From positions 1 through 23,114 of the forward strand of contig PKTV01000084.1 in the NCBI GenBank assembly GCA_002868985.1: a DNA stretch of 23,114 bases, given 5' to 3'. A program made the translations under genes and the position numbers. Below are positions 3,580-15,297 of this stretch, piece by piece (the stretch's first letter is position 1; each line of letters starts with the position of its first letter). A model generated the notes under the pieces. The model was not told the DNA's origin. It ran no database searches and saw only the letters and a program-made list of their open reading frames with translations. This stretch comes from Desulfobacteraceae bacterium. GTDB taxonomy: Bacteria > Desulfobacterota > Desulfobacteria > Desulfobacterales > UBA11574.

Positions 3580-4758
3580 ATGGAATCATGTCAACCTATT
3601 TTAAATACCGGCCTCCGCGGTTTTAAAGTCGCAACGACTCGGGTCGGTGATGTTGACGGTGCTGCCGGAAGATTGATCTACAGAGGCTATTTGGTTCAGG
3701 ATTTGGCCGGAAAAGTGTCATTTGAAGAGGTTTCATATCTGTTGCTCTATGAAAGACTGCCTCAAAAAACAGAACTTGAAGATTTCAAGAAACTGCTTGT
3801 ATCGGAACGGTCCGTCCCTCCTGGACTTATCGCAGCCCTTGAAACCATACCCAAAGATGCCCTTTCCATGGATGTCCTTCAGGCAGCAACTGCCTTACTG
3901 GCACACCACGATCCTGACGCCAAGGAATACTCTCCTGAAGCGTCACATCGCATGGGAATAAAACTCATCGCAAAATTCCCAACTATTGTCGCAGCATGGG
4001 ATCGCATCCGGAACAATAAAAAACCTCTTGATCCGGATCCGGAGTTGAGCCATGCAGCCAACTTTCTTTATATGCTCAACGGAACAATTCCGGACGATGA
4101 ACTCACCAGTTTTTTCGATACCTGCCTGGTGCTTCATGCAGAACATTCTTTTAACGCTTCAACATTTTCGGCAAGACAGGTGGCATCAACAAGAGCTCAC
4201 ATGTATTCAGCCGTTGCGGCCGGGGTCGGTTCTTTATCCGGAGAATTGCACGGTGGTGCAAATACTCGCGTCATGGAGATGCTCCTTAACATCGGTTCTG
4301 TCGACAAAGTTGAAGCATATGTGAACAATCTGCTCGACACCGGTGGAATTATCATGGGACTGGGCCATGCAGTCTACAAAACCGATGATCCCAGAGCGCA
4401 TATCCTGGCACCCATGTCCAAAATAATGGGCGAGCGTATCGGAGAACCTAAGTGGTATGAAATGTCCAAAATTCTTGAGAAAAAGGGTAAGGAAGCCTTT
4501 AAACAGAGAAAAGGAAGAGACATTTTTGTAAATGTCGATTTCTACAGCGCGTCTCTCTATTATTACATGGGGATACCGATAGACCTCTTTACGCCGATAT
4601 TTGCTATCGCCAGAGTTTCCGGATGGGCTGCCCATGTGATCGAAGAGCAGTTTGGGGGTGCTGCTTCAAAACCGGTGCTTTACCGTCCCGACTCCGAGTA
4701 TATTGGAGAGTACTGCGGTCCTGAAGAGTGCGCTTTTGTACCCATGGACGAACGATGA
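3580..4758 (+). CDS. gltA: Citrate synthase
   Basis: Condenses oxaloacetate with acetyl-CoA to citrate, the entry step of the citric-acid cycle. The 392-residue protein has the citrate-synthase fold signatures: GDVDGAAGRLIYRGY near residues 22-37, SGELHGGANTRVM with catalytic His224, MGLGHAVYKTDDPRA with catalytic His263, and NVDFYSA with catalytic Asp320. GHAV followed by TDPR-like residues is closer to the eukaryotic/Si-type wording than to the GHRVYK of many bacteria. Close neighbours korAB (12497-15006) provide the ferredoxin-linked 2-oxoglutarate step, consistent with an anaerobic cycle. The ATG is preceded by a strong GGAGG site. 2-Methylcitrate synthase is the main alternative, but no prpB/prpD-like genes are nearby. 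Confidence 0.93.
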   Translation: MESCQPILNTGLRGFKVATTRVGDVDGAAGRLIYRGYLVQDLAGKVSFEEVSYLLLYERLPQKTELEDFKKLLVSERSVPPGLIAALETIPKDALSMDVLQAATALLAHHDPDAKEYSPEASHRMGIKLIAKFPTIVAAWDRIRNNKKPLDPDPELSHAANFLYMLNGTIPDDELTSFFDTCLVLHAEHSFNASTFSARQVASTRAHMYSAVAAGVGSLSGELHGGANTRVMEMLLNIGSVDKVEAYVNNLLDTGGIIMGLGHAVYKTDDPRAHILAPMSKIMGERIGEPKWYEMSKILEKKGKEAFKQRKGRDIFVNVDFYSASLYYYMGIPIDLFTPIFAIARVSGWAAHVIEEQFGGAASKPVLYRPDSEYIGEYCGPEECAFVPMDER

Positions 4759-4828
4759 TGTCAATCTAAAGAAGGGTGACGGACGGTGTTAACGGCCTAT
4801 TCCGAACGGAGTCAAGAAAGGAGCTCGA

Positions 4829-5482
4829 GTGAAAAAGTGGCGATGTACGGTCTGCGGCTACATCCATGAAGGGGAGGAGCCGCCTGAAATATGCCCGGTT
4901 TGTGGCGCTGATCGAAGTAAGTTTGTTGAAATTGTTGCTGAAGAAAATGATGAAAAGAAATCAAAAACAAAAATAGATCCCATTAAACTCGAAACCGAAA
5001 CAAAAACTTTAGATGCTGAAGGAAAAACTCTTGACCCTCCGTTAAAACATGACCGGATTTATCAACTGATGGTCAAGCATCATGTTCATCCGATTTCGGT
5101 TCATATCCCCAACGGGTTACTTCCCGTTTCCGTTCTTTTTATATTTTTAGCCGTTATTTTCAAAATCACCGGTTTAAGTCAGGCCGCATTTTACAACCTC
5201 ATCGTTGTTGTCTTTGCCATGCCGCTGGTACTTTTTTCAGGGGTTATTGTGTGGCGAAAAAAATATAACGGTGCCATGACAACCCTGTTTCTGACAAAGA
5301 TGATTTGCGGCGGTGTGGTAACATTAACGGCAATGATATTGGTGATATGGTCTATTATTGACCCCGGCGTGTTGGCACTGACTTCCTCCCATTTAGTCGC
5401 GTTTCTCTTTGTTAACATCGTTATGCTTGGTGCGGCTGTTACCGCTGGATTTCTCGGCGGAAAGCTCGTGTTCAAAGAATGA
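4829..5482 (+). CDS. Rubredoxin-like domain fused to a four-helix membrane domain (DUF2231-like)
   Basis: Residues 1-35 form a short rubrerythrin-type rubredoxin: C6-x2-C9[13 protein letters not shown]22-x2-C25-G, which binds one FeS4 iron. A charged linker (about 36-75) leads into a His-rich entry segment ([17 protein letters not shown]) and four hydrophobic helices at roughly 90-112, 116-140, 152-175 and 186-212. This resembles the DUF2231 membrane domain, some members of which have histidines suited to haem or quinone contact. The protein probably passes electrons between a membrane carrier and a soluble acceptor, but no reaction is established. GTG at 4829 is used because AAAGGAG (4817-4823) lies 5 nt upstream. 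It precedes the TrxR-like gene by 24 nt, suggesting one redox-defence transcript. Confidence 0.75.
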
Positions 5483-5506
5483 TTTCATAAAAAAGGACCA
5501 TAAACC

Positions 5507-7102
5507 ATGGATCAACAGGAAGACATTCAGGCACTGGAAGCCCAAAAAGAAATTGAAAGAATATTGGGCGCGATTAAAGAAGAAATTCCTATTTTTTTGT
5601 ACGCTCAGCCCGGCCAAAATGATGTATTCACTGATACCGCCAGGCAGGCCGTTCGTTTTTTTCGGCAACTTACCGATAAAATTGTCTTGCGCGAATTTAA
5701 TTTACATCATGAATCCGCGAAAAAATGGAACGTTGAACATTCGCCCACTTTGATTTTCAATCCGGACCGCTACAATATCCGGTGGCTGGGAGCACCCCTG
5801 GGTGAAGAAGGACGTATTTTTCTGGAGGCCGTCATCCTCATCGGGCTTCAGAGGAGCAATCTCAGCGAACAATCACTCCAGGTCATAAAACGTATAGACA
5901 CCCAAAGGAATATCAAGGTGTTTGTCAGTGCGAGCTGTCCGTATTGTCCGCAGCAGGCCCTGAACGCTTTAAAGGCAGCTGTTGAAAAGCCCGATTTAGT
6001 TTCTCTGGAAATCATCGATATACAGGCTAACCCTGAACTTGCTACCCGATATTCAGCCCAGTCTGTTCCCCAAACATATGCAAATGACATTTTGATTGCC
6101 CAGGGCGCACAGACGGAAGAGCTTTTTATGCTGTCTCTGGATAAAATGGAGGAACAGACGGTTTTTATTCCCGAAAGTGATGCAGAAGAAGTTGAAACAG
6201 ATCTGGTGGTTGTGGGGGGCGGCCCGGCGGGACTGACAGCCGGAATTTACGCAGCAAGAAGCGGTCTTAAAACGGTGGTCGTGGAAAAAGGGGTCCTTGG
6301 TGGTCAGGTGGCCACAACCCCGGTTGTTGAAAATTATCCGGGCCTCAAACAAATCGGTGGGAAAACACTTGTGGATATTATGGTGACCCATGCTCTGGAA
6401 TATGTACAGATTTTCCCGGGAGAAGGGGTTGTTGAAATTACACCCAATGATCCTATCAACGTACAAACCACCCGACGAAAGTTCAAGACCAAAGCCGTGC
6501 TGATGACCACCGGAGCCACCCACAGACATCTTCGGGTCCCCGGCGAATCTCGTCTGTCGGGGCATGGTGTCAGTTATTGCAGTACCCGTGACGTCCCGCT
6601 TTTTAAGGGGAAAAAAGCCATTGTCGTCGGCGGCGGCAACAGTGCCGCTACAGAAGCGCTTCATATGCATCATATTGGCGTGGATGTCACCCTGGTTCAC
6701 AGGAAAGGTAGTCTAAAAGCGCAGGATTTTTTGGTACAAAACCTGGTAAAAAACAACATTCCGATACTTTTTAATACTGAAGTCAAGGAAATCAGGGGAA
6801 AACATAACGTAGAAGAAGTTTTGCTTTACAATAACAAAACTGAAGAATCTTATTCTCGAACCGTTAATGGCGTCTTTATTGCCATTGGGTATGATCCTAC
6901 TGTGGAGTTGGCAAATAAAATAGGGATAGAGCTTACGGACGAAGGGTTTATCAAGCACGATAATTACAGAACAAATATCCCCGGAATTTATACTGCCGGA
7001 GATGTGTCGGGTGGATACAAGCAAATTGTTACGGCTGCCGGACACGGCGCAGAAGCGGCTATGGTCATTTTTGAAGACCTCATCAATCCATACTGGATCT
7101 AA
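5507..7102 (+). CDS. Thioredoxin-reductase/AhpF-like flavoprotein with N-terminal glutaredoxin-like unit and altered CxxC
   Basis: A 531-residue protein built like AhpF. Residues 1-215 are a double thioredoxin fold: the first half lacks cysteines, the second has C144-P-Y-C147 and the cis-Pro loop SVPQT. Residues 231-531 are a TrxB-type flavoprotein with FAD motif GGGPAG (237-242), NADPH motif GGGNSA (375-380), HRK at about 398 and a C-terminal GDV FAD motif. In TrxR and AhpF the redox centre following GVSYC is C-x2-C; here it is C358-S-T-R361, the second cysteine being Arg (codon CGT, one transition from TGT). Dithiol transfer from FAD to CPYC in the normal way would thus be impaired, and another mechanism or ferredoxin-NADP reductase-like use is possible. 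It lies directly downstream of the rubredoxin-membrane gene; AAAAAGGA provides the ribosome site. Confidence 0.82.
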   Translation: MDQQEDIQALEAQKEIERILGAIKEEIPIFLYAQPGQNDVFTDTARQAVRFFRQLTDKIVLREFNLHHESAKKWNVEHSPTLIFNPDRYNIRWLGAPLGEEGRIFLEAVILIGLQRSNLSEQSLQVIKRIDTQRNIKVFVSASCPYCPQQALNALKAAVEKPDLVSLEIIDIQANPELATRYSAQSVPQTYANDILIAQGAQTEELFMLSLDKMEEQTVFIPESDAEEVETDLVVVGGGPAGLTAGIYAARSGLKTVVVEKGVLGGQVATTPVVENYPGLKQIGGKTLVDIMVTHALEYVQIFPGEGVVEITPNDPINVQTTRRKFKTKAVLMTTGATHRHLRVPGESRLSGHGVSYCSTRDVPLFKGKKAIVVGGGNSAATEALHMHHIGVDVTLVHRKGSLKAQDFLVQNLVKNNIPILFNTEVKEIRGKHNVEEVLLYNNKTEESYSRTVNGVFIAIGYDPTVELANKIGIELTDEGFIKHDNYRTNIPGIYTAGDVSGGYKQIVTAAGHGAEAAMVIFEDLINPYWI

Positions 7103-7212
7103 TTTTTTATGATAATCAATGCATTAAAATTTAGATTGAGATTTATATCTTCTGATCCATAATCCTGAGCTTCTGCGAGCTGTTGAAAACATCATTACCT
7201 TTTGGTTTAAAA

Positions 7213-7812
7213 ATGAACAAGCAACAATCTATTTTAAATAACTCAGTTGAGAACCCCGAGAAATGGGTTGATCTGTATGGTGATTATCTTTACAGATACG
7301 CTCTTTACAGGGTTTATGAGGCCACCGTTGCAGAAGACCTGGTCCAGGAAACTTTTCTTGCCGCCCTTCGTTCTTTAAAAAATTTTCAATACCGTTCATC
7401 CATAAAAACCTGGCTTACCGGTATCCTAAAACACAAAATCATCGATCACTTTCGAAAAAAAGCAAAAGAACAACCGATGGATGATATCGAATCCAATATT
7501 AATAATTTAGACAATCTTTTTACCAAGAACGGACAATGGAAAATTAAACCGGCCGATTGGAACGCTAATCCACAGAAGCGTTATGATCAAAAGGAGTTTA
7601 TTAAGATTCTCCAAAAATGTTTGTCGGAACTTCCCGTTCGGCAGGCCAGTGCGTTTATTCTCAGAGAAATTGTTGGTGAAAATACAAAAGAAATTTGTAA
7701 GATTTTGGACATTTCTACGACCAATTCGTGGGTGTTACTTCACAGAGCCCGAATGTATTTGAGGCGATGCCTTGAAATCAACTGGTTCAACAATTCGTAT
7801 GAAAGAGAATAA
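7213..7812 (+). CDS. ECF-like sigma-70 family sigma factor
   Basis: About 199 residues with sigma region 2 (DLVQETFLAALRSLKNF, then SIKTWLTGILKHKIIDHFRKK, residues about 40-85) and region 4 (LSELPVRQASAFILREIVG, then TKEICKILDISTTNSWVLLHRARMYLRRCL). A charged insert of about 45 residues joins them, and there is no region 1 or 3, as in ECF sigma factors. The next gene, 2 nt downstream, encodes a zinc-ligand anti-sigma-like protein, the standard ECF pairing. The start is uncertain: the ATG at 7213 lacks a clear ribosome site, and TTG at 7183 would add ten residues. The regulon is unknown; position after a thiol-redox gene and before peroxide-defence genes suggests redox stress, which is inference. 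Confidence 0.85.
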   Translation: MNKQQSILNNSVENPEKWVDLYGDYLYRYALYRVYEATVAEDLVQETFLAALRSLKNFQYRSSIKTWLTGILKHKIIDHFRKKAKEQPMDDIESNINNLDNLFTKNGQWKIKPADWNANPQKRYDQKEFIKILQKCLSELPVRQASAFILREIVGENTKEICKILDISTTNSWVLLHRARMYLRRCLEINWFNNSYERE

Positions 7813-7814
7813 AA

Positions 7815-8090
7815 ATGAAGCACTGGATGTTTAATTGCAAAAAAATGACATACTTGGTGTCGGAATCCCTTGACCGAAAACTGTCTTTGCACCAGCGAAT
7901 GGGAATGAGGATACACCTGATGATGTGCAAATTCTGTTCTCGTTACCAAGAACAGTTACTCTTTTTATGTAAAACAGCCCGCCTATATTCCGAAAGCATC
8001 GAAAACTCTGATCTTTCAATTCAACTATCGTCTGAGGTTGGTAAACGGATTAAAGAATCTATGGTCCGTTTTCTGGAAAAGCATAAATAG
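7815..8090 (+). CDS. Small zinc-binding anti-sigma factor
   Basis: A 91-residue soluble protein with the zinc anti-sigma (zf-HC2-type) pattern: C8 and then H34-x3-C38-x2-C41. These four ligands match the redox-responsive ZAS domain of RsrA/ChrR-type anti-sigma factors, where oxidation of the cysteines releases the sigma factor. The rest is helical with no transmembrane segment, so it would act in the cytoplasm. It starts 2 nt after the sigma-factor stop, so the pair should be made together. Function is inferred from pairing and ligand pattern; not every ZAS protein is redox-sensitive. Confidence 0.75.
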   Translation: MKHWMFNCKKMTYLVSESLDRKLSLHQRMGMRIHLMMCKFCSRYQEQLLFLCKTARLYSESIENSDLSIQLSSEVGKRIKESMVRFLEKHK

Positions 8091-8111
8091 ACCCGCCATG
8101 GAAGACGCAAC

Positions 8112-8666
8112 ATGAAAAATAAAATTGTAAGAGATTTAATGGTACCAATATCAGAATATGAGACCATTTCCATCGAATCCAATTTATACGAAGCCGCCCT
8201 TGCCCTTGATAAAGCTCAAAAAGCCTATGAACAGGGAATGTATCCCCATAAAATCCTTCTTATATCTGATGAAAACGGAGAAATTGTCGGCAAAATTAGC
8301 CAGTTGGATGTCCTCAGAGTATTAGAACCAAAAGGAAAAAAAATCTGCGATTCCAAAACCCTATCCAGATTTGGTGTCAGTTCTCGGTATTTAAAACCGA
8401 TGCTGAGTCAATGCGAATTTTGGGACAAACCTTTGATTGATATCTGTAGGAGTGCGAGCCGGCTTAACGTCAAAATACTGGTCTGCGCTCCAGCCGAAGG
8501 AGAGTCTGTTCCGGAAGACGCTTCTCTGAGTGAAGCCATACATCAACTGGCTCTGGAGCATCATCAGTCTTTATTGGTGACCCGGGGCAAAAAAATTGTG
8601 GGGATTCTAAGACAAACATATATGTTCAAAGAGGTTGTGGAAACACTTGCAGTTTATGAGCTCTAA
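8112..8666 (+). CDS. CBS-pair protein
   Basis: A 184-residue protein made of two CBS domains: VRDLMVPISEYETISIESNLYEAA ... HKILLISDENGEIVGKISQLDVLRVL (residues 6-72) and VPEDASLSEAIHQLALEHHQSLLVTRGKKIVGILRQTYMFKEV (about 137-180). CBS pairs bind adenosyl ligands such as AMP or ATP and act as energy-state sensors; there is no attached enzyme here, so the partner is unknown. It follows the anti-sigma gene by 21 nt and precedes the SLC13 permease, so it may regulate either. The intermediate segment (75-135) is poorly conserved in type. Its stop codon abuts the short repeat at 8667-8698. Confidence 0.8.
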   Translation: MKNKIVRDLMVPISEYETISIESNLYEAALALDKAQKAYEQGMYPHKILLISDENGEIVGKISQLDVLRVLEPKGKKICDSKTLSRFGVSSRYLKPMLSQCEFWDKPLIDICRSASRLNVKILVCAPAEGESVPEDASLSEAIHQLALEHHQSLLVTRGKKIVGILRQTYMFKEVVETLAVYEL

Positions 8667-8698
8667 CCTAAACTGAGCGTTTCAAACTTTAACTTAGG
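8667..8698 (+). mobile_element. Short CCTAA-family repeat (copy C)
   Basis: A 32-bp sequence joining a left end CCTAAACTGAGCGTTTCAA to a right end AACTTAGG with almost no interior. It is flanked by TCTAA (8662-8666) and TCAAA (8699-8703), a 4-of-5 match. The left flank includes the TAA stop of the CBS gene. It looks like an extreme internal-deletion derivative of the 206/123-bp elements. Confidence 0.55.
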
Positions 8699-8761
8699 TC
8701 AAACTGTCCGGCACGTATCTCCTTAATGCGTTCTGAGAGTGATAATTTTTGGAATTAATCT

Positions 8762-10231
8762 ATGGCAGGAGATTTTGAATTTAATAATAGTAACAGCCAT
8801 TTTAACGCAAAACAATTTATTTTTCTTTTTGCCGGTATCTTGCTCTTTGCACTGGTGTATTATGCCCCGCCGTGGTCGGACGCAATCGATCCGGTCGGAA
8901 AACATTTTGTATTGAGCAGAGAGGGAAAAGGCGCTCTGGCGATATCTCTGTTTGCCACAACCTGGTGGGTTTTGGAAGTCGTACCCGTCGGTGTCACAAG
9001 TCTTGCCATTGGCGTCCTTCAGGTCTTTTTTCTTATCCGTCCGGCCAAGGCCGCGTTCACGGACTTTATGAGCCCATCGGTCATGTTTATCTTGGCCTCC
9101 ATCGTCATCGGCATGGTTTTTACAAAAACCGGACTCACCAAGCGTATGGCCTATAAAATGCTGGTGATTGTCGGCGAAAAAACCAGTATGATTTATCTCG
9201 GCTGTTTTGTGTTGATCGCTGCTTTGACTCACATAATGGCCCATACAGCTGTAGCGGCAACCATATATCCGCTTCTTGTTTCTATTTACGGGCTTTATGG
9301 AGAAGAAGACCAGCCAACGAAGTTTGGCAAGGGGCTCTTTATGGGCATGGCTTATGTCGCCGGGGCAGGAAGCATTGTAACGCTATTAGGCGCTGCACGG
9401 GGTGCGGTTGCCATAGGCTTTTATAATGACATCATTGGCCAGGATATCACATTTTTCCAATTGAGTTATTACATGCTTCCCATAGGGTGGTTGATGGTTA
9501 TTTTATTGTGGATATTTTTTATGATTTTCTTCAAGCCCGAAAAAAGCGCTATTCCAGGGTTAAGAGAAAGGGCTATTCAGCTCGATAAAAACCTGGGACC
9601 GCTTACCAGAAAAGAAATCATCGCCATGATCATCGTCTTTGCCTGTATTCTGGCAATGTCTCTGAGTTCCTTTTTTCCGGCGTTTAAGATTCTCGATAAA
9701 ACCGCCATTATCTTAACCTCAACGATTCTTTTTTTTATTACAGGTATCCTGGATGTCGATGACCTTGAAGAAATACCATGGAATATCATCCTGCTCTTTG
9801 CTGGTGCCATGAGCATGGGTTTTTGCCTCTGGCAAACAGGTGCGGCCAAGTGGCTTGCGATAAAATGGCTGATGATATTCCATAATTCAAGCGGTTTCTT
9901 CTTTATTATGGGTATTGCATTTTTCGTTATGATTATGACCAATTTTTTAATGAACGTAGCGGCCATCGCGATCTCCCTGCCGGTTGCATTGGTGCTTGCT
10001 TCTTATCTAAGCGTAGCACCGGATGTCATCCTTTTTACATCCTTGGTCGCGGCAGGAATGCCGTTTCTGTTGCTTGTCGGCGCCGCTCCAAATGCCATCG
10101 CATATGAATCCAGACAGTTTACACCGGCTGAATTTTTTCTATACGGAATACCGGCAAGTATCTTGCTGATCGCAGTAACCGGTTTTGCGGTTTACGTTCT
10201 GTGGCCGATCATGGGCATGCCGATTCATTGA
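8762..10231 (+). CDS. DASS/SLC13-family anion:Na+ permease
   Basis: A 489-residue membrane protein with about 11-12 hydrophobic helices and the divalent anion:Na+ symporter layout: an AHTAVAATIYPLLVSIYG segment in the first half and TNFLMNVAAIAISLPVALVLA in the second, each in the place of the repeated SNT hairpin motif. In both, the canonical Ser-Asn-Thr has changed (AHT and MNV), so Na+ or substrate coordination may differ from dicarboxylate carriers. Candidate substrates for this family are dicarboxylates, tricarboxylates and sulfate; the sequence does not decide. The ATG has only a weak ribosome site (GGA). It follows a short repeat and stands between the CBS protein and the OsmC gene. 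Confidence 0.82.
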   Translation: MAGDFEFNNSNSHFNAKQFIFLFAGILLFALVYYAPPWSDAIDPVGKHFVLSREGKGALAISLFATTWWVLEVVPVGVTSLAIGVLQVFFLIRPAKAAFTDFMSPSVMFILASIVIGMVFTKTGLTKRMAYKMLVIVGEKTSMIYLGCFVLIAALTHIMAHTAVAATIYPLLVSIYGLYGEEDQPTKFGKGLFMGMAYVAGAGSIVTLLGAARGAVAIGFYNDIIGQDITFFQLSYYMLPIGWLMVILLWIFFMIFFKPEKSAIPGLRERAIQLDKNLGPLTRKEIIAMIIVFACILAMSLSSFFPAFKILDKTAIILTSTILFFITGILDVDDLEEIPWNIILLFAGAMSMGFCLWQTGAAKWLAIKWLMIFHNSSGFFFIMGIAFFVMIMTNFLMNVAAIAISLPVALVLASYLSVAPDVILFTSLVAAGMPFLLLVGAAPNAIAYESRQFTPAEFFLYGIPASILLIAVTGFAVYVLWPIMGMPIH

Positions 10232-10339
10232 TGAATCGACTTGAACCATCGCCCATATGATGGCCTCATAATAAGAATATCATTGAAAATCATTTACATA
10301 ATTCACCAGCTCTGTGGGGCGATCATCAAGGAGGAGATT

Positions 10340-10810
10340 ATGGGAGAAATTGTTCACACATCACATATTACGATCACAAGAGAAATGGGGCCTACCCGGA
10401 AAGCCATGATCAAGGGTTTTGCTGAACCGGTCTATTACGGGGTTCACGGCGGAATCAAAAATTTCTATAAAGTTGATCCGGAAAAAGAGCATGCGGCAAC
10501 GTTAGATCACATCGTCGGTGCTGTGGGCGGCTGAATGATGGGCACACTGGCCGCGGTGCTGGCCGGCAAAAAAATTCGGACCTTTAAAGATCTGTTTAAC
10601 GCTAACGTAACCGGCGATATCGAAGACGTCGACGGTGTTTTGAAAATTACGCGGATTAACGTTAGTTACTGGCTTAAATTGCCAAAGGAAAAGAGGGCGG
10701 AGGCAAAAGATGCGCTGGAATCCTATTTGAAATTATGTCCCGGAGCCCAAAGCGTCATCGGTTGCATTGAAATCAACCATGAACTGACTATGGAAGACTT
10801 AATTGAATAA
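10340..10810 (+). CDS. OsmC-family selenoprotein (UGA-decoded Sec65)
   Basis: Read through the in-frame TGA at 10532-10534, the gene encodes 156 residues of an OsmC/Ohr-type thiol peroxidase. The upstream part has the OsmC strand region (IVHTSHITITREMG, GGIKNFYKVDPEKEHAATLDHIVGAVGG); the downstream part continues without a gap (MMGTLAAVLAGKKI, the long central helix; then KLCPGAQSVIGCIEI). The UGA is exactly where OsmC proteins have the peroxidatic Cys (GGC-xx-T), and C133-P is the resolving Cys position (compare about 60 and 125 in Ohr/OsmC). AAGGAGG (10328-10334) lies 5 nt before ATG 10340, whereas ATG 10535 has no ribosome site, so reinitiation is unlikely. A SECIS-like hairpin follows. 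Rubrerythrin starts 14 nt downstream, giving a peroxide-removal operon. Sec incorporation is inference until selABCD is shown in the genome. Confidence 0.87.
10532..10566 (+). promoter_or_regulatory. UGA codon and SECIS-like hairpin
   Basis: After UGA (10532-10534) and a 12-nt spacer, CTGGCC (10547-10552) pairs with GGCCGG (10561-10566), six pairs including one G-U, around the 8-nt loop GCGGTGCT. The loop contains GGU, the feature SelB reads in the E. coli fdhF SECIS, whose stem begins about 11 nt after UGA. Spacing, apical G/U and GC-rich stem all fit a bacterial SECIS. An alternative weaker stem GGCAC / GTGCT (10541-10560) exists. Confidence 0.65.
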
Positions 10811-10824
10811 AAAGGAGGAATTGT

Positions 10825-11322
10825 ATGAGTCAAACAGAAAAAAATTTACTGGAAGCATTTTCCGGAGAATCCCAGGCCAACCGAAAGTATCTTGCATTTG
10901 CAAAAAAGGCAGACCAGGAAGGTCATCCTCAGGTTGCCAACCTTTTCAGGGCGGCTGCAGAGGCTGAAACCGTCCATGCCCATGCACATCTAAGGGTCCT
11001 CAAAGGAATAAAATCAACCGCTGAAAACCTCAAAGAGGCCATTGCCGGCGAAACCCATGAGTTCAAAAGTATGTATCCGGAAATGATCGACACAGCACAA
11101 TCAGAAGGAGACAAAGCAGCTCTGAGAAGCTTTACCTTTGCCAATGAAGTTGAACAAATACACGCCGATCTTTACCAGAAGGCTCTGGACAGTCTTGATA
11201 ATCCTGAAGCCGTAGAATGCTACTATGTCTGCGCTGTGTGCGGCTATACCTGTGAGAATGAACCTCCGGAAACATGCCCGGTTTGTAACGCCAACGTCAA
11301 GGCTTTTTCCAGGGTGGATTAA
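10825..11322 (+). CDS. rbr: Rubrerythrin
   Basis: Reduces hydrogen peroxide to water in anaerobes with electrons from rubredoxin or NADH-linked carriers. The 165-residue protein has the ferritin-like di-iron domain (residues 1-125; ligand-type motifs E15, E48-x2-H51, and E110-x2-H113 in NEVEQIHADLY) and a C-terminal rubredoxin domain (C136-x2-C139-GY ... C151-P-x-C154). Length is slightly shorter than Desulfovibrio rubrerythrin (about 191), matching the compact form. AAAGGAGG precedes the ATG. It starts 14 nt after the OsmC selenoprotein gene, so the two probably form one peroxide-defence transcript, plausibly under the PerR-like regulator. Confidence 0.95.
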   Translation: MSQTEKNLLEAFSGESQANRKYLAFAKKADQEGHPQVANLFRAAAEAETVHAHAHLRVLKGIKSTAENLKEAIAGETHEFKSMYPEMIDTAQSEGDKAALRSFTFANEVEQIHADLYQKALDSLDNPEAVECYYVCAVCGYTCENEPPETCPVCNANVKAFSRVD

Positions 11323-11364
11323 AAAAAATCACAAACATTAATAAATTTAGTAAGGAGGTTGAAA

Positions 11365-11808
11365 ATGGCAAAAGTGCTTATCGGTTATTACAGCAGAACT
11401 GGAATTACGGAAAAAATGGCGGAATTTATCGCTGAAGGTGTTCGTCTCACCGGAAACACCGCGGAACTGAAAAAAATCTCTGAAATAAAAGATGAAAAAG
11501 AGATGGGAGGATACGATGGGTTCATATTCGGGTGTCCCACTTATCATCGGGATATCACTGCAGGCATGAAAACATTTCTATTCTTGGCGGAAAAAGCCAA
11601 TCTGGTGGGTAAGATGGGGGGCGCGTTCGGGTCTTATACCCACAGCGGTGAATCTGCTGACATGATTTATGACACCATGCTTTACGTATTCAAAATGGAC
11701 ATGGTTGATCTGGGCGCTTTAAATCTGAAAGAACAGGTCATGGAAACTGATGAAGGAGCGCGTGCCTGCCAGGATTACGGAAAAGCCATTGGTCAGAAGT
11801 TTTCTTAA
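11365..11808 (+). CDS. Flavodoxin-like protein
   Basis: A 147-residue flavodoxin fold. The FMN phosphate loop is SRTGITE (about 9-15) after the first strand AKVLIGYY; GCPTYHRDITAGMKTFL and GAFGSYTHSGESADMIYDTM supply the two isoalloxazine-side loops. It resembles the flavodoxin half of flavodiiron proteins (FprA) more than long-chain flavodoxins, but has no metallo-beta-lactamase partner here. It is a one- or two-electron carrier. ATG 11365 is used because AAGGAGG (11352-11358) lies 6 nt upstream; an in-frame TTG at 11359 would touch that site. It follows rubrerythrin by 42 nt and may donate electrons to it or to the OsmC system; partners are inferred from position only. Confidence 0.85.
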   Translation: MAKVLIGYYSRTGITEKMAEFIAEGVRLTGNTAELKKISEIKDEKEMGGYDGFIFGCPTYHRDITAGMKTFLFLAEKANLVGKMGGAFGSYTHSGESADMIYDTMLYVFKMDMVDLGALNLKEQVMETDEGARACQDYGKAIGQKFS

Positions 11809-11865
11809 TCCTGAGTAAAATGTTGTGTAAGTACTGTTTCAAATTGTGATCTGTCCCATTCTGCC

Positions 11866-11884
11866 CTTCCCCTTCATGGGGAAG
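11866..11884. repeat. Small hairpin between flavodoxin and ferredoxin
   Basis: CTTCCCC and GGGGAAG form a perfect 7-bp stem with loop TTCAT, about 57 nt after the flavodoxin stop. No T-run follows on the plus strand, so it is not a standard intrinsic terminator; it may be a processing or attenuation structure. Confidence 0.4.
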
Positions 11885-11974
11885 AGTTTGGGCGGGAGTG
11901 AAGCCCATTAAATAGGTAACCGAATTTTGGATCCGGAATACGAAGACTTAAATTTATTGAAAAAGGAGAAAACG

Positions 11975-12169
11975 ATGAAAGTAAAAGTCACTGAAAATTG
12001 CATGGGAGATCGGCGTTGTAACGACTTATGTCCTGAAGTTTTCGAATACGATGAGGATCAACTCAAGTCTACCATCAAGGTTGATGACGTCCCCGCACAA
12101 TACGAGGCACTTGTTAGGCAGGCTGCAGATGAATGCGGCGCCGATGCCATTATCATAGAAGAGGATTGA
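11975..12169 (+). CDS. Single-cluster ferredoxin with Asp at the second ligand position
   Basis: A 64-residue monocluster ferredoxin. The cluster motif is C9-x2-D12-x2-C15-x3-C19-P with a distal C54 (ADECGADAI). Standard [4Fe-4S] ferredoxins have Cys at position 12; Asp there is known from the Pyrococcus furiosus ferredoxin, where it ligates the fourth iron or lets it be lost to give [3Fe-4S]. The acidic character (PEVFEYDEDQL) fits an electron carrier. The ATG at 11975 is selected because AAAAGGAG lies just upstream; the frame stays open further upstream (TTG 11927) without a ribosome site. It sits before korAB, a likely ferredoxin reducer, but the inserted element at 12182-12371 and a promoter separate them. 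Confidence 0.85.
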   Translation: MKVKVTENCMGDRRCNDLCPEVFEYDEDQLKSTIKVDDVPAQYEALVRQAADECGADAIIIEED

Positions 12170-12181
12170 TGACATTTAAAC

Positions 12182-12371
12182 GGGGCCAGGATTTCACGGC
12201 ATAGCCTGAATCTTGCACAGACAATCTTGAAGTAATAATGAAAGTATTCCGAAAATACCAATCGGGTTAAAAAGTATTGTTTTAGAATTGGATTCAATTT
12301 TTAAAATATTATTATATTATTTTTAACATTTCAAGATTGTCTGTGCAAGATTCAGGTATAAATCCGGCCCC
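12182..12371. mobile_element. 190-bp inverted-repeat element (MITE-like, GGGGCC ends)
   Basis: Two arms face each other: a perfect 27-bp inverted repeat at 12205-12231 and 12330-12356 (starting CCTGAATCTTGCACAG and ending in TTGAA), extended outward by GGGGCC-GGATTT ends at 12182-12194 and 12360-12371. The left arm has eight more bases than the right. The 98-bp interior is very AT-rich and has no gene. As RNA or single-stranded DNA it would make a stem of about 40 pairs. I see no clear target duplication. It fills most of the 327-bp gap between the ferredoxin gene and korA and is unrelated to the CCTAA family. Confidence 0.65.
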
Positions 12372-12401
12372 ATAGCTTTTTATCCTGCGAAAACATTAGA
12401 T

Positions 12402-12429
12402 TTGACATGCCACGGTGTGGGATTATATT
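12402..12429 (+). promoter_or_regulatory. Candidate sigma-70 promoter for korAB
   Basis: TTGACA (12402-12407) and TATATT (12424-12429) with a 16-bp spacer, the best promoter match in the window. It lies 30 bp after the inverted-repeat element and would give a leader of about 60 nt before the korA start. Confidence 0.5.
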
Positions 12430-12496
12430 AAGTTCAATAGTATAAATCGTATCCTGCAATATCAACAGTCACCTATACGACATTAGGAGGCACATC

Positions 12497-14149
12497 ATGA
12501 CAGAAATATCGATTCTAGTCGGCGGTAAAGCGGGTGATGGTATCCGGCAGGCCGGTCACGTCATTGCCCGACTTTTGAATCGAATCGGCTATCGGATTTT
12601 TTTCTACGATGATTATCCCTCTCTAATACGTGGTGGTCACAATTTTTCCATCATCAGGGCCTCGGAAAAAAGCATCGCTGCGCACAAAGAGACGGTCGAT
12701 GTCATTGTAGCCTTAAATCAGGATACCGTTGACAATCATAAACATCGACTCAATACCGGCGGGATAATCCTCTATGATTCTAAAAAATCGGATGCCGAAG
12801 GCATCGGATTCGACTTTATGGACATTGTCAAAACGTTCGACGGAAAGCCGATTATGAGGAATACCGCAGCCATCGGAGCACTGGCCGGCGCATTAAATAT
12901 CGAATGGTCTGTTCTGGAAAAAGTCATCATGGATGCCGTAGAAAACAGCGTCGACTTGAATCTCAAAATCGCCCGGCATGCTTACGACCGGATTGAAAAC
13001 CCTTCCAAGACCGTGCCAAAACTGGATCAAAACCCCCTGCCACTGGTCTCCGGCAATGAAGCCATTGCCCTTGGGGCCGTTAAAGCCGGTTTGAACATGT
13101 ACATTGCCTATCCCATGACCCCCGCATCGGCCATTCTCCATTATCTGGCAGCCTACGAAACCGAGTTGGGGGTGGTCACCGTGCACCCTGAAAGCGAAAT
13201 TGGTGTTGCACTCATGGCACTGGGGACCGCCTATGCCGGCGCAAGGACCATGGTCGGTACTTCCGGCGGAGGATTCGCGTTGATGACAGAAGCCTTGAGC
13301 CTGGCCGGACAGGGTGAACTTCCCATGGTCATCGTGGAATCTCAGAGACCCGGGCCAGGTACCGGTGTTCCAACATACACCATGCAAGGCGATCTGGCCT
13401 TTGTTGTCCATGCCGGGCATGGGGAAATATTAAGGGTGGTGCTGGCACCCGGCGATGCTCAGGAGGCATTTTACACGACCGGACTGGCCATGAACCTTGC
13501 ATGGAAATTTCAGATTCCGACCCTTGTGCTTTCCGACAAGCATTTGAGCGAAAGCATATTCAGCTTCGAGGCCGATCTGGACAAGGTTAAACCGGAGAAG
13601 CCACTTCTATGGAAAAACCAGGGAGAATACAAAAGATATTTAGATACTCAAAACGGCATTTCACCGTTGGCCTTTCCTGGAAATCCGTCGGCAATCGTTA
13701 AAGCCACTTCCTATGAACATGATGAGAGTGGCATTACAACTGAGGAACCAGAAGCAATTTCCCGGATGCAGAGAAAACGGCTGCGCAAAAGAAAAGCTTT
13801 GGAAGATGAGCTTGAAAAATATGAAACGGTGAACGTATACGGAAACCCTGATTCAAAAACCGTCCTCCTCTGTTGGGGATCAACCAAGGGGGCATGTATA
13901 GAAGTGGCCGAAGCCTTGGATCTTAAAGTGGTCCAACCCCTGATATTGGAGCCTTTACCGGTAGAGGCGTTAAAAAAAGCCCTTTCCGGCGCCGATAAAA
14001 TCATAGACGTGGAAGTCAATGCCACCGGACAACTGGCAAAACATGTTGCCGGTCACGGTTTCTGCATTGATGATATGATTTTACGTTTTGACGCGCGTCC
14101 CTTTACCGTGGATGTTCTGATAGACAACGTAAAGGAGGTGCTCTCATGA
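12497..14149 (+). CDS. korA: 2-oxoacid:ferredoxin oxidoreductase, fused gamma-alpha subunit (2-oxoglutarate type likely)
   Basis: Together with KorB it oxidatively decarboxylates a 2-oxoacid to the acyl-CoA and reduces ferredoxin. Of the 550 residues, about 1-180 form the gamma domain (ILVGGKAGDGIRQAGHVIARLL; YPSLIRGGHNFSIIRAS) and the rest the alpha domain (SGNEAIALGAVKAGLNMYIAYPMTPASAIL; TVHPESEIGVALMALGTAYAGARTMVGTSGGGFALM). The gamma-alpha fusion with a separate beta gene and no ferredoxin-like delta subunit is typical of KorAB. A strong AGGAGG site precedes the ATG. The stop overlaps the korB start by 4 nt. Citrate synthase nearby favours 2-oxoglutarate as substrate; other oxoacids, for example branched-chain ones, cannot be excluded. 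Between about 410 and 450 it has a charged, Lys/Arg-rich stretch (RMQRKRLRKRKALEDELEKY). Confidence 0.9.
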   Translation: MTEISILVGGKAGDGIRQAGHVIARLLNRIGYRIFFYDDYPSLIRGGHNFSIIRASEKSIAAHKETVDVIVALNQDTVDNHKHRLNTGGIILYDSKKSDAEGIGFDFMDIVKTFDGKPIMRNTAAIGALAGALNIEWSVLEKVIMDAVENSVDLNLKIARHAYDRIENPSKTVPKLDQNPLPLVSGNEAIALGAVKAGLNMYIAYPMTPASAILHYLAAYETELGVVTVHPESEIGVALMALGTAYAGARTMVGTSGGGFALMTEALSLAGQGELPMVIVESQRPGPGTGVPTYTMQGDLAFVVHAGHGEILRVVLAPGDAQEAFYTTGLAMNLAWKFQIPTLVLSDKHLSESIFSFEADLDKVKPEKPLLWKNQGEYKRYLDTQNGISPLAFPGNPSAIVKATSYEHDESGITTEEPEAISRMQRKRLRKRKALEDELEKYETVNVYGNPDSKTVLLCWGSTKGACIEVAEALDLKVVQPLILEPLPVEALKKALSGADKIIDVEVNATGQLAKHVAGHGFCIDDMILRFDARPFTVDVLIDNVKEVLS

Positions 14150-15006
14150 CAACCAATATAGAATTAGGGACCTATGCTCAGAATACATGGTGCCCCGGTT
14201 GCGGCAACTTTGGTATTTTAAACACCATCAAAAAAGTCCTGCCCCAGCTTCAAGAAGACGGGCTGGACCCCAGTAACGTTGTCCTGGTTTCGGGAATCGG
14301 ATGTCATGCTAAAATTGTGGACTATGTCAATGCAAACAGCTTCTATTCGATTCATGGTCGGGTTCCCCCACCAATGACCGGAATTAAGCTGGCCAATCCG
14401 AATTTGACGGTGATCGGCCATGCCGGTGACGGAGATGCTTATGGTGAAGGTATTGAACATCTCATTTTCAGTGCCAAGCGAAATTTAGACATAACCTTCA
14501 TTGTCCACAACAACAGGGTATACGGACTCACAACCGGTCAGTTTACACCCACCAGCCCTCCCGGTTTTAAAGGTCGGTCGACCCCGGAAGGCAGTCCCGA
14601 AGAACCATTGAATCCTATCGAACTCATGCTATCTGCCGGCGCCACTTTTGTCGCCAGAGGGTATACACGAAAAATGAAACACCTCCAGTCCTTGATTAAA
14701 GCCGCGGTCAGTCACAAAGGGTTTTCATTTATCGATGTGCTTCAACCCTGCTTCACTTTTTTCGATACCTATGATTATTACAACAAAAGGGTGTATGAAT
14801 TCACCCAGCAGGATCATGATGTTTCCGATAGAAACGCAGCTTTTGTCAAGGCCGGAGAATGGGCTTACAAAGAAGGAGAGCAGATTCCCATTGGTATTTT
14901 TTACCAGGTAATAAAACCCACCTATGAAGAAAAACTTTTGAAAGGAAGGATTCCTGTTCAACTAACACCTGGGGATATCCGGCCGATTCTCGAAAAAAAT
15001 ATTTAA
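14146..15006 (+). CDS. korB: 2-oxoacid:ferredoxin oxidoreductase, beta subunit
   Basis: The thiamine-diphosphate subunit, 286 residues. WCPGCGNFGIL near the N-terminus, SGIGCHAKIVDYVN, and the TPP/Mg motif GDGDAYGEG followed by NNRVYGLTTGQFTPTSPPG are diagnostic of the KorB/PorB group. In this group the subunit also holds a proximal 4Fe-4S cluster bound by cysteines; C-x2-C near residue 16-19, C in GIGCH and C of LQPCFTFF are suitable. The gene begins within the korA stop (ATGA), and its ribosome site AAAGGAGGTG lies inside korA, so the subunits are made in step. It ends 72 nt before the NifU-like gene, whose product may help deliver its cluster. Confidence 0.93.
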   Translation: MTTNIELGTYAQNTWCPGCGNFGILNTIKKVLPQLQEDGLDPSNVVLVSGIGCHAKIVDYVNANSFYSIHGRVPPPMTGIKLANPNLTVIGHAGDGDAYGEGIEHLIFSAKRNLDITFIVHNNRVYGLTTGQFTPTSPPGFKGRSTPEGSPEEPLNPIELMLSAGATFVARGYTRKMKHLQSLIKAAVSHKGFSFIDVLQPCFTFFDTYDYYNKRVYEFTQQDHDVSDRNAAFVKAGEWAYKEGEQIPIGIFYQVIKPTYEEKLLKGRIPVQLTPGDIRPILEKNI

Positions 15007-15078
15007 TTGAATTTTTTGATAAAAACTTTCTGACCCCAAATGCAATTTGAATTCAACAGAATAAGGAGCATAAAACCA

Positions 15079-15297
15079 ATGAAAGAAAAAGTTGAAAAAG
15101 CGTTAAATGATGTCAGACCACATCTTCAGGCAGATGGTGGAGATGTGGAACTTGTTGATGTGGAAAACAATATTGTCAAAGTAAGATTAAAAGGTGCCTG
15201 CGCCGGTTGTCCCATGTCCCAGATGACACTTAAACAGGGCATAGAGCGGTATATTAAGAAGCTCATTCCGGAAATAATCAGCGTGGAATCCGTGTAA
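15079..15297 (+). CDS. NifU C-terminal-like (Nfu) Fe-S scaffold
   Basis: A 72-residue protein made only of the Nfu domain: EKVEKALNDVRPHLQADGGDVELVDV, then GACAGCPMSQMTLKQGIERYIKKLIPEI. The C-x2-C of CAGC binds a labile 4Fe-4S cluster between two monomers, which is passed to apoproteins. It follows korB on the same strand and may load KorB or the nearby ferredoxin. ATG 15079 is used because AAGGAG (15063-15068) is 10 nt upstream; the frame remains open back to 15040 but that extension does not look like Nfu sequence. Confidence 0.9.
   Translation: MKEKVEKALNDVRPHLQADGGDVELVDVENNIVKVRLKGACAGCPMSQMTLKQGIERYIKKLIPEIISVESV

Follow-up and report, generated by a model that had tools for sequence, protein, structure and literature searches.

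The window, the whole 23,114-nucleotide stretch of DNA that was analysed, carries one OsmC-family gene with an in-frame TGA at 10340..10810 on the forward strand. We put the probability at about 0.9 that this single gene encodes an OsmC-family selenol/thiol protein in which UGA codon 65 is decoded as selenocysteine (Sec) under the direction of a hairpin, and which works through a Sec65/Cys133 cycle. As judged by sequence comparison, it is one gene with a Sec/Cys exchange, a conserved hairpin and an alignment to both catalytic Cys residues of OsmC/Ohr proteins, and a Sec at the peroxidatic position is supported. We infer that Sec is actually inserted in the source organism and that a peroxide substrate and a reductant take part.

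The gene was delimited by frame reading, Pfam and locus comparison, and comprises 156 codons followed by the terminator TAA (10808-10810). As the original prediction held, its two open frames are in phase and are separated by a single TGA (10532..10534, forward strand; codon 65), so that readthrough gives a product of 156 amino acids. The Pfam OsmC model spans residues 56-147 of this product, across the TGA (1.8e-10; 41.5 bits against a cut-off of 27.5), and its alignment puts a Cys at residue 65. The second Cys-Pro that had been proposed at the resolving position was found as Cys133-Pro134, with the Cys133 codon at 10736..10738 (forward strand). A Shine-Dalgarno-like aaggagg lies 5′ of the start (10328..10334, forward strand), and none was seen by eye 5′ of the ATG at 10535, in agreement with the claim of a ribosome site only before 10340. 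The source MAG is a 3.05-Mb draft of 577 contigs, 89.7% complete, with the OsmC gene on contig C65.

OsmC matches were found in 14 of 40 close genomes, 69 of 389 genomes of the order and 41 of 395 genomes in a draw from the phylum (own genome included; the 69 include a few with partial matches only). Codon 65 was read in 68 loci and in 40 further rows. All 68 loci of the first set have TGA at this codon, and the further rows have TGA in 32, TGC or TGT in five distant relatives (28-33% identity) and three partial matches that fall short of codon 65. With two duplicates removed, the 100 TGA rows represent 98 distinct loci, and TGA is present in every one of these 98 loci, read at identities of at least 36% (range 36-99%). 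Outside this count are partial matches, namely second pieces in G005, G018 and G088, and matches in G215, G316, G334, G434 and G574; a TGA is recorded for those of G005, G088 and G434 and for one of the G215 pieces. An additional stop occurs in three rows only (L009, its duplicate L083, and L116), as a TAA or TAG at residue 154-155, the protein end, and the remaining TGA rows printed for both sets have no other internal stop within the match.

Two subfamilies were distinguished: A, with 52 sequences at 63% identity or more, and B, with 16 sequences at 36-46%. In subfamily A the median dN/dS was 0.128 for the part before the TGA and 0.222 for the part after it (usable dS in 258 and 322 of 1326 pairs); the corresponding values for subfamily B were 0.112 and 0.163 (27 and 49 of 120 pairs). 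Purifying selection acts on both sides of the TGA. Homologues continue past the TGA; ending there without downstream conservation is the outcome that the original prediction had named as counting against it. Invariant residues across the 68 loci include R20, H36, G68, T69, C133 and P134, and Cys133 is also kept in every one of the 40 further rows that covers it. Relatives with names are labelled Desulfobacterales, Desulfobacteraceae or Deltaproteobacteria. No relative was obtained in a plasmid search with the protein P0006 or in a search of viral contigs with A1. A second OsmC piece in G018 (C155:2670-2864; L022, L187) covers residues 83-154 only and is apparently a half copy.

A protein database search found 1786 relatives, of which 120 were listed; proteins shorter than 0.55 of the query length, and so the upstream halves, lie beyond the reach of this search. 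Among those listed, 102 are no longer than 95 amino acids, and 101 of these have an MM or MG start, as would be read from codon 66 or 67. Gene callers halve the protein, as had been expected of automated annotation: ORF calling with table 11 gives two ORFs in the window, most of the listed relatives are short, and no NCBIfam model matched the product. The 18 listed relatives longer than 95 amino acids have Cys (nine) or Trp (nine) at residue 65. The nine Cys forms share about 58-65% identity with the query; one of them, P0006, has Ser at 133. Together with the TGC/TGT codons of the five distant relatives, they bear out the predicted alignment with Cys-containing homologues at residue 65, and the in-frame UGA stands opposite the Cys of homologues, the pattern by which a bacterial selenoprotein is recognized. 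Trp at 65 was seen in P0002, P0005, P0010, P0013, P0014, P0018, P0019, P0027 and P0030. These entries may be table-4 gene calls of the TGA, and perhaps hide selenoproteins in public data.

A SECIS-like hairpin follows the TGA on the forward strand, with a 5′ arm at 10547..10553, an apical loop CGGTGC at 10554..10559 (19 nt after the TGA, G in second place) and a 3′ arm at 10560..10566. Both arms are delimited by covariation and by RNAalifold, the 3′ arm also by the later sequences described below, and the loop by the published bSECIS model as coded. In subfamily A (n = 52) the 7-bp helix joins columns 16-22 with 29-35, where the T of TGA is column 1. Pairing is kept in 96.0% of its cells, with 32 double-changed cells and a covariation score of 0.385, and none of 500 shuffles was as high; the double-changed cells fall in three pairs, a number matched in 27 of 500 shuffles. 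Slid versions of the helix paired at most 58.0% of cells, the slide of -1 having 27 double-changed cells, against 32, at 52.6% paired. RNAalifold recovered the identical helix, unaided, with three outer pairs. A later set of 31 sequences, two of them already in the subfamily A set, paired 96.8% of the helix cells, with 5 double-changed cells in one pair. None of 500 shuffles equalled its percentage paired, its double-changed cells or its covariation score, 407 of 500 equalled its number of double-changed pairs (1), and the slide of -1 gave 6 double-changed cells against 5. All seven pairs are kept in 24 of these sequences and six in the other 7. Folded alone, the window region is unexceptional (z -0.52; 56 of 200 shuffles equally good), and its MFE structure is a rival fold which, on the alignment, paired 81.7% of cells with 7 double-changed cells, above its own shuffles and below the main helix. 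Rfam gave no match in the window at gathering scores.

Subfamily B has a different hairpin (columns 23-29 with 33-39), which is well formed and nearly invariant. With a single double-changed cell, a count as high in 33 of 500 shuffles, it is supported by its form and not by covariation. Counted from the UGA, the hairpin lies at 19 nt in one subfamily and at about 25-26 nt in the other; L189, a member of the second type, scored best with a hairpin at 19 nt. The bSECIS model, as described in the accessible part of a published account (PMC13188914), has a loop of 3-9 nt, a stem of 4-16 bp, a G within the first two loop positions, a spacing of 16-37 nt and an MFE of -7.5 or below. The window hairpin falls within it (spacing 19, loop 6, stem 7; -9.7, counting the core helix alone). 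Applied to the core hairpin, the model as coded was passed by 43 of 52 sequences in A, 16 of 16 in B and 30 of the 31 later ones, the other nine in A failing by energy or by G position. For 36 of the 52 sequences in A and 11 of the 16 in B, no more than 10 of 200 synonymous shuffles had an equally good core hairpin; for the MFE of the whole 42-nt stretch this was so in only 9 and 5 of them, respectively. One of the five Cys genes has a hairpin of only -4.7 kcal/mol, and the other four have none of the model's form. The fraction of identical codons is highest at codons 71-74, in the middle of the hairpin (0.76-0.86, against a mean of 0.465).

In the source MAG neither selA nor tRNA-Sec was found (the tRNA candidates were Trp, Leu, Arg, Tyr and Ser tRNAs), and no selB scored over the cut-off. 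A selD gene is present (L061:1483-2430, on contig C415); its motif CGUAAK includes an in-frame TGA, and it is likely to be another selenoprotein gene. Absence of the Sec machinery had been named beforehand as evidence against selenocysteine; this holds in the MAG for selA, selB and tRNA-Sec, does not hold for selD, and relatives do have the machinery. Among the four same-genus genomes (G001-G004), selA is present in all, selB in three (G002, G003, G004) and tRNA-Sec in two (G001, G004); both selA and selB are partial in G002. In G004 the three lie on three contigs, so that three separate gaps would be needed to account for their absence from the MAG. The 6-kb selB locus of G003 gave one long match in the MAG (C72:3252-3573, 95%) plus many short repeat-like ones, with 40 of 95 candidates scored. 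Contig C72 has 3573 bases, and its last base lies inside a gene and runs towards selB; in G003 this gene is two genes (HemW and an MgtE-like protein) away from selB, and neither of the two has a long match in the MAG. Since the same-genus genomes carry the machinery and C72 breaks off in the neighbourhood of selB, the missing genes are probably due to assembly gaps.

More widely, of 27 chosen genomes 24 gave a selA; it was missing from the source MAG, G005 and G006. With up to 80 candidates scored per genome, tRNA-Sec was found in five of the 14 OsmC-positive close genomes (G001, G010, G018, G019, G031). The TGA gene, selA and selB all occur in G008, whose genome is a single contig, yet among the 80 of its 275 candidates that were scored no tRNA-Sec appeared at E 1e-8. 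In the order, selB was not enriched in genomes with OsmC (56 of 69) relative to the others (269 of 320; Fisher p 0.59), and as selB is present in 325 of the 389 genomes of the order, its co-occurrence is uninformative as a test for the machinery. Two genomes have a second tRNA-Sec of divergent sequence (anticodon tca; 53-56 bits), at G036:C31:146741-146832 and G039:C62:115833-115922 (L058, L060), about 510 and 57 bases, respectively, upstream of a second selB; both also have copies with higher scores at other sites. Additional copies with lower scores occur in G012, G020 and G028.

A structure model of the product (pLDDT 80.8) has the OsmC fold and matches OsmC/Ohr structures; whole-chain Foldseek superposition was poor (rmsd 10.7-14.3, TM about 0.5), and identity to the aligned structures is 9-21%. 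Residue 65 and Cys133, with its Pro, align with the Cys and Cys-Pro of 1lql (E 0.043) and 6d9n (E 0.02), so that by alignment at these weak E-values the product has the two redox residues of OsmC/Ohr peroxidases. The Cys aligned with residue 65 in these structures is the peroxidatic one. The predicted placement of the TGA at the catalytic Cys site agrees with both the Pfam alignment and these sequence alignments to PDB entries. In the proposed mechanism, SelB and tRNA-Sec would decode UGA codon 65 as selenocysteine, directed by the stem-loop that starts 12 nt after the UGA and reaches its apical loop after 19 nt. Sec65 would replace the peroxidatic Cys, and Cys133 would serve as resolving Cys. 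The Sec65 selenolate would reduce peroxide and become a selenenic acid, which would form a selenenylsulfide with Cys133, to be reduced in turn by a cellular dithiol. Compared with the Ohr/OsmC organic hydroperoxide reductases (1nye, 6d9n, 1lql), the protein would carry Sec where those have the peroxidatic Cys.

A rubrerythrin gene, identified by Pfam, begins 14 bases 3′ of the OsmC stop (10825..11322, forward strand), and the two genes are possibly on one transcript. Rubrerythrin is found near the OsmC gene in nine of 13 loci of family f1 (L007-L019) and in no loci of other families, in flanks of mostly 1.5-4 kb; in family f1 it fits oxidative defence. Outside this family the neighbours vary, HAD hydrolases making up 7 of 75 neighbours scanned, and gene neighbourhood was dropped there as a clue to function.

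That the TGA is a nonsense mutation or a sequencing error in a dead gene is almost certainly wrong. Such a gene would yield two ORFs on table-11 calling and short database entries starting with MM or MG, as observed; against it stand the same TGA in 98 distinct loci, purifying selection downstream and the lack of any further internal stop before residue 154. The original prediction had preferred selenocysteine to a nonsense mutation, and the conserved TGA, the Cys of relatives, the selection and the compensatory changes in the SECIS-like hairpin all favour that choice. It is very improbable that the locus makes two separate proteins, the second from the ATG at 10535. An ATG does follow the TGA, both in the window and in all but one of the 52 subfamily A sequences, whereas all 16 subfamily B genes have CTG and then ACC or ACG at codons 66-67, with no ATG, GTG or TTG; moreover, a Shine-Dalgarno sequence was not seen before 10535, and the split would cut a single Pfam domain. 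Just as improbable is a decoding of UGA as tryptophan (code 4), or its plain readthrough. The Trp at residue 65 in half of the 18 longer database relatives would suit it, if these entries were not, as we take them to be, table-4 gene calls; elsewhere the aligned residue is Cys, and TGA terminates 7 of 22 window genes and 20 of 52 subfamily A genes.

The gaps in the machinery of the MAG could also mean that Sec decoding has been lost and that the OsmC gene is a recent relic. We regard this as improbable: neither the gene nor the hairpin is damaged, the machinery is present in same-genus genomes, the two genes by which C72 stops short of selB (in the G003 order) lack long matches in the MAG as well, and the selC neighbourhood of G001 gave just three matches there, of 45-74 bases. 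A selenoprotein might also have a job other than peroxide reduction, for instance in persulfide chemistry or in an exchange between selenium and sulfur in anaerobes. The weak sequence matches to PDB entries and the varied neighbours outside family f1 would allow such a role; it is unlikely given that both catalytic Cys positions are retained and that rubrerythrin is nearby in most family f1 loci.

The original prediction placed OsmC-like selenoproteins in selenoproteome surveys, and this proved correct: in their accessible text, the Sargasso Sea and GOS surveys have OsmC-like selenoproteins with the motif UxxT (PMC1088965, PMC2398784; PF02566/COG1765), as do two reviews (PMC9312934, PMC13188914). 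The published proteins, as far as described there, share with the present one the OsmC domain, a Sec in place of a redox Cys and a bacterial SECIS-type hairpin after the UGA. The present branch reads U-M-M-G-T or U-L-T-G-T, both subfamilies having G at +3 and T at +4, and does not have the UxxT motif; on account of this motif it is considered a variant of the known OsmC-like selenoproteins. It differs also in having TGA in every genome locus read at 36% identity or more, and in comprising two subfamilies whose hairpins are differently placed. In the accessible tables the OsmC-like rows begin with 3 (Sargasso, unique sequences; PMC1088965) and 5 (GOS; PMC2398784), whereas TGA was found here in 98 distinct loci. 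The accessible main text of PMC12013277, PMC8318568 and PMC5109826 has no OsmC, and no paper naming this branch was among those listed in a literature search whose coverage mostly leaves out subscription literature. The Sec-containing SelD of the same genome also has an in-frame TGA; it is an unrelated enzyme and a well-known selenoprotein.

Tentatively, the data may describe an OsmC branch, spread over an entire phylum of anaerobes, in which selenocysteine is nearly always retained and the hairpin has two positions. TGA is present in all genome loci read at 36% identity or more, although nine Cys forms exist in the protein database; these forms and the 19-nt hairpin of L189 speak against strict dependence on Sec, and lowered our estimate from even odds to somewhat below. 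If true, Sec would be long-lived here and required for the chemistry, in contrast to the sporadic Sec forms of earlier reports, and its steady retention would offer a test of why some enzymes need selenium. The difference in hairpin position illustrates how a SECIS element may move within a coding region while Sec is retained.

The gene order in the window from 3580 to 15297 is citrate synthase, rubredoxin-DUF2231, TrxR-like, sigma factor, CBS, symporter, OsmC, rubrerythrin, flavodoxin, ferredoxin, POR and NifU, and is partly conserved within the family; citrate synthase, the sigma factor and CBS were named from their translations and the other neighbours via Pfam. A promoter-like site (11 of 12) was observed at 12402-12429, in the gap that precedes the 2-oxoacid:ferredoxin oxidoreductase genes (12497).
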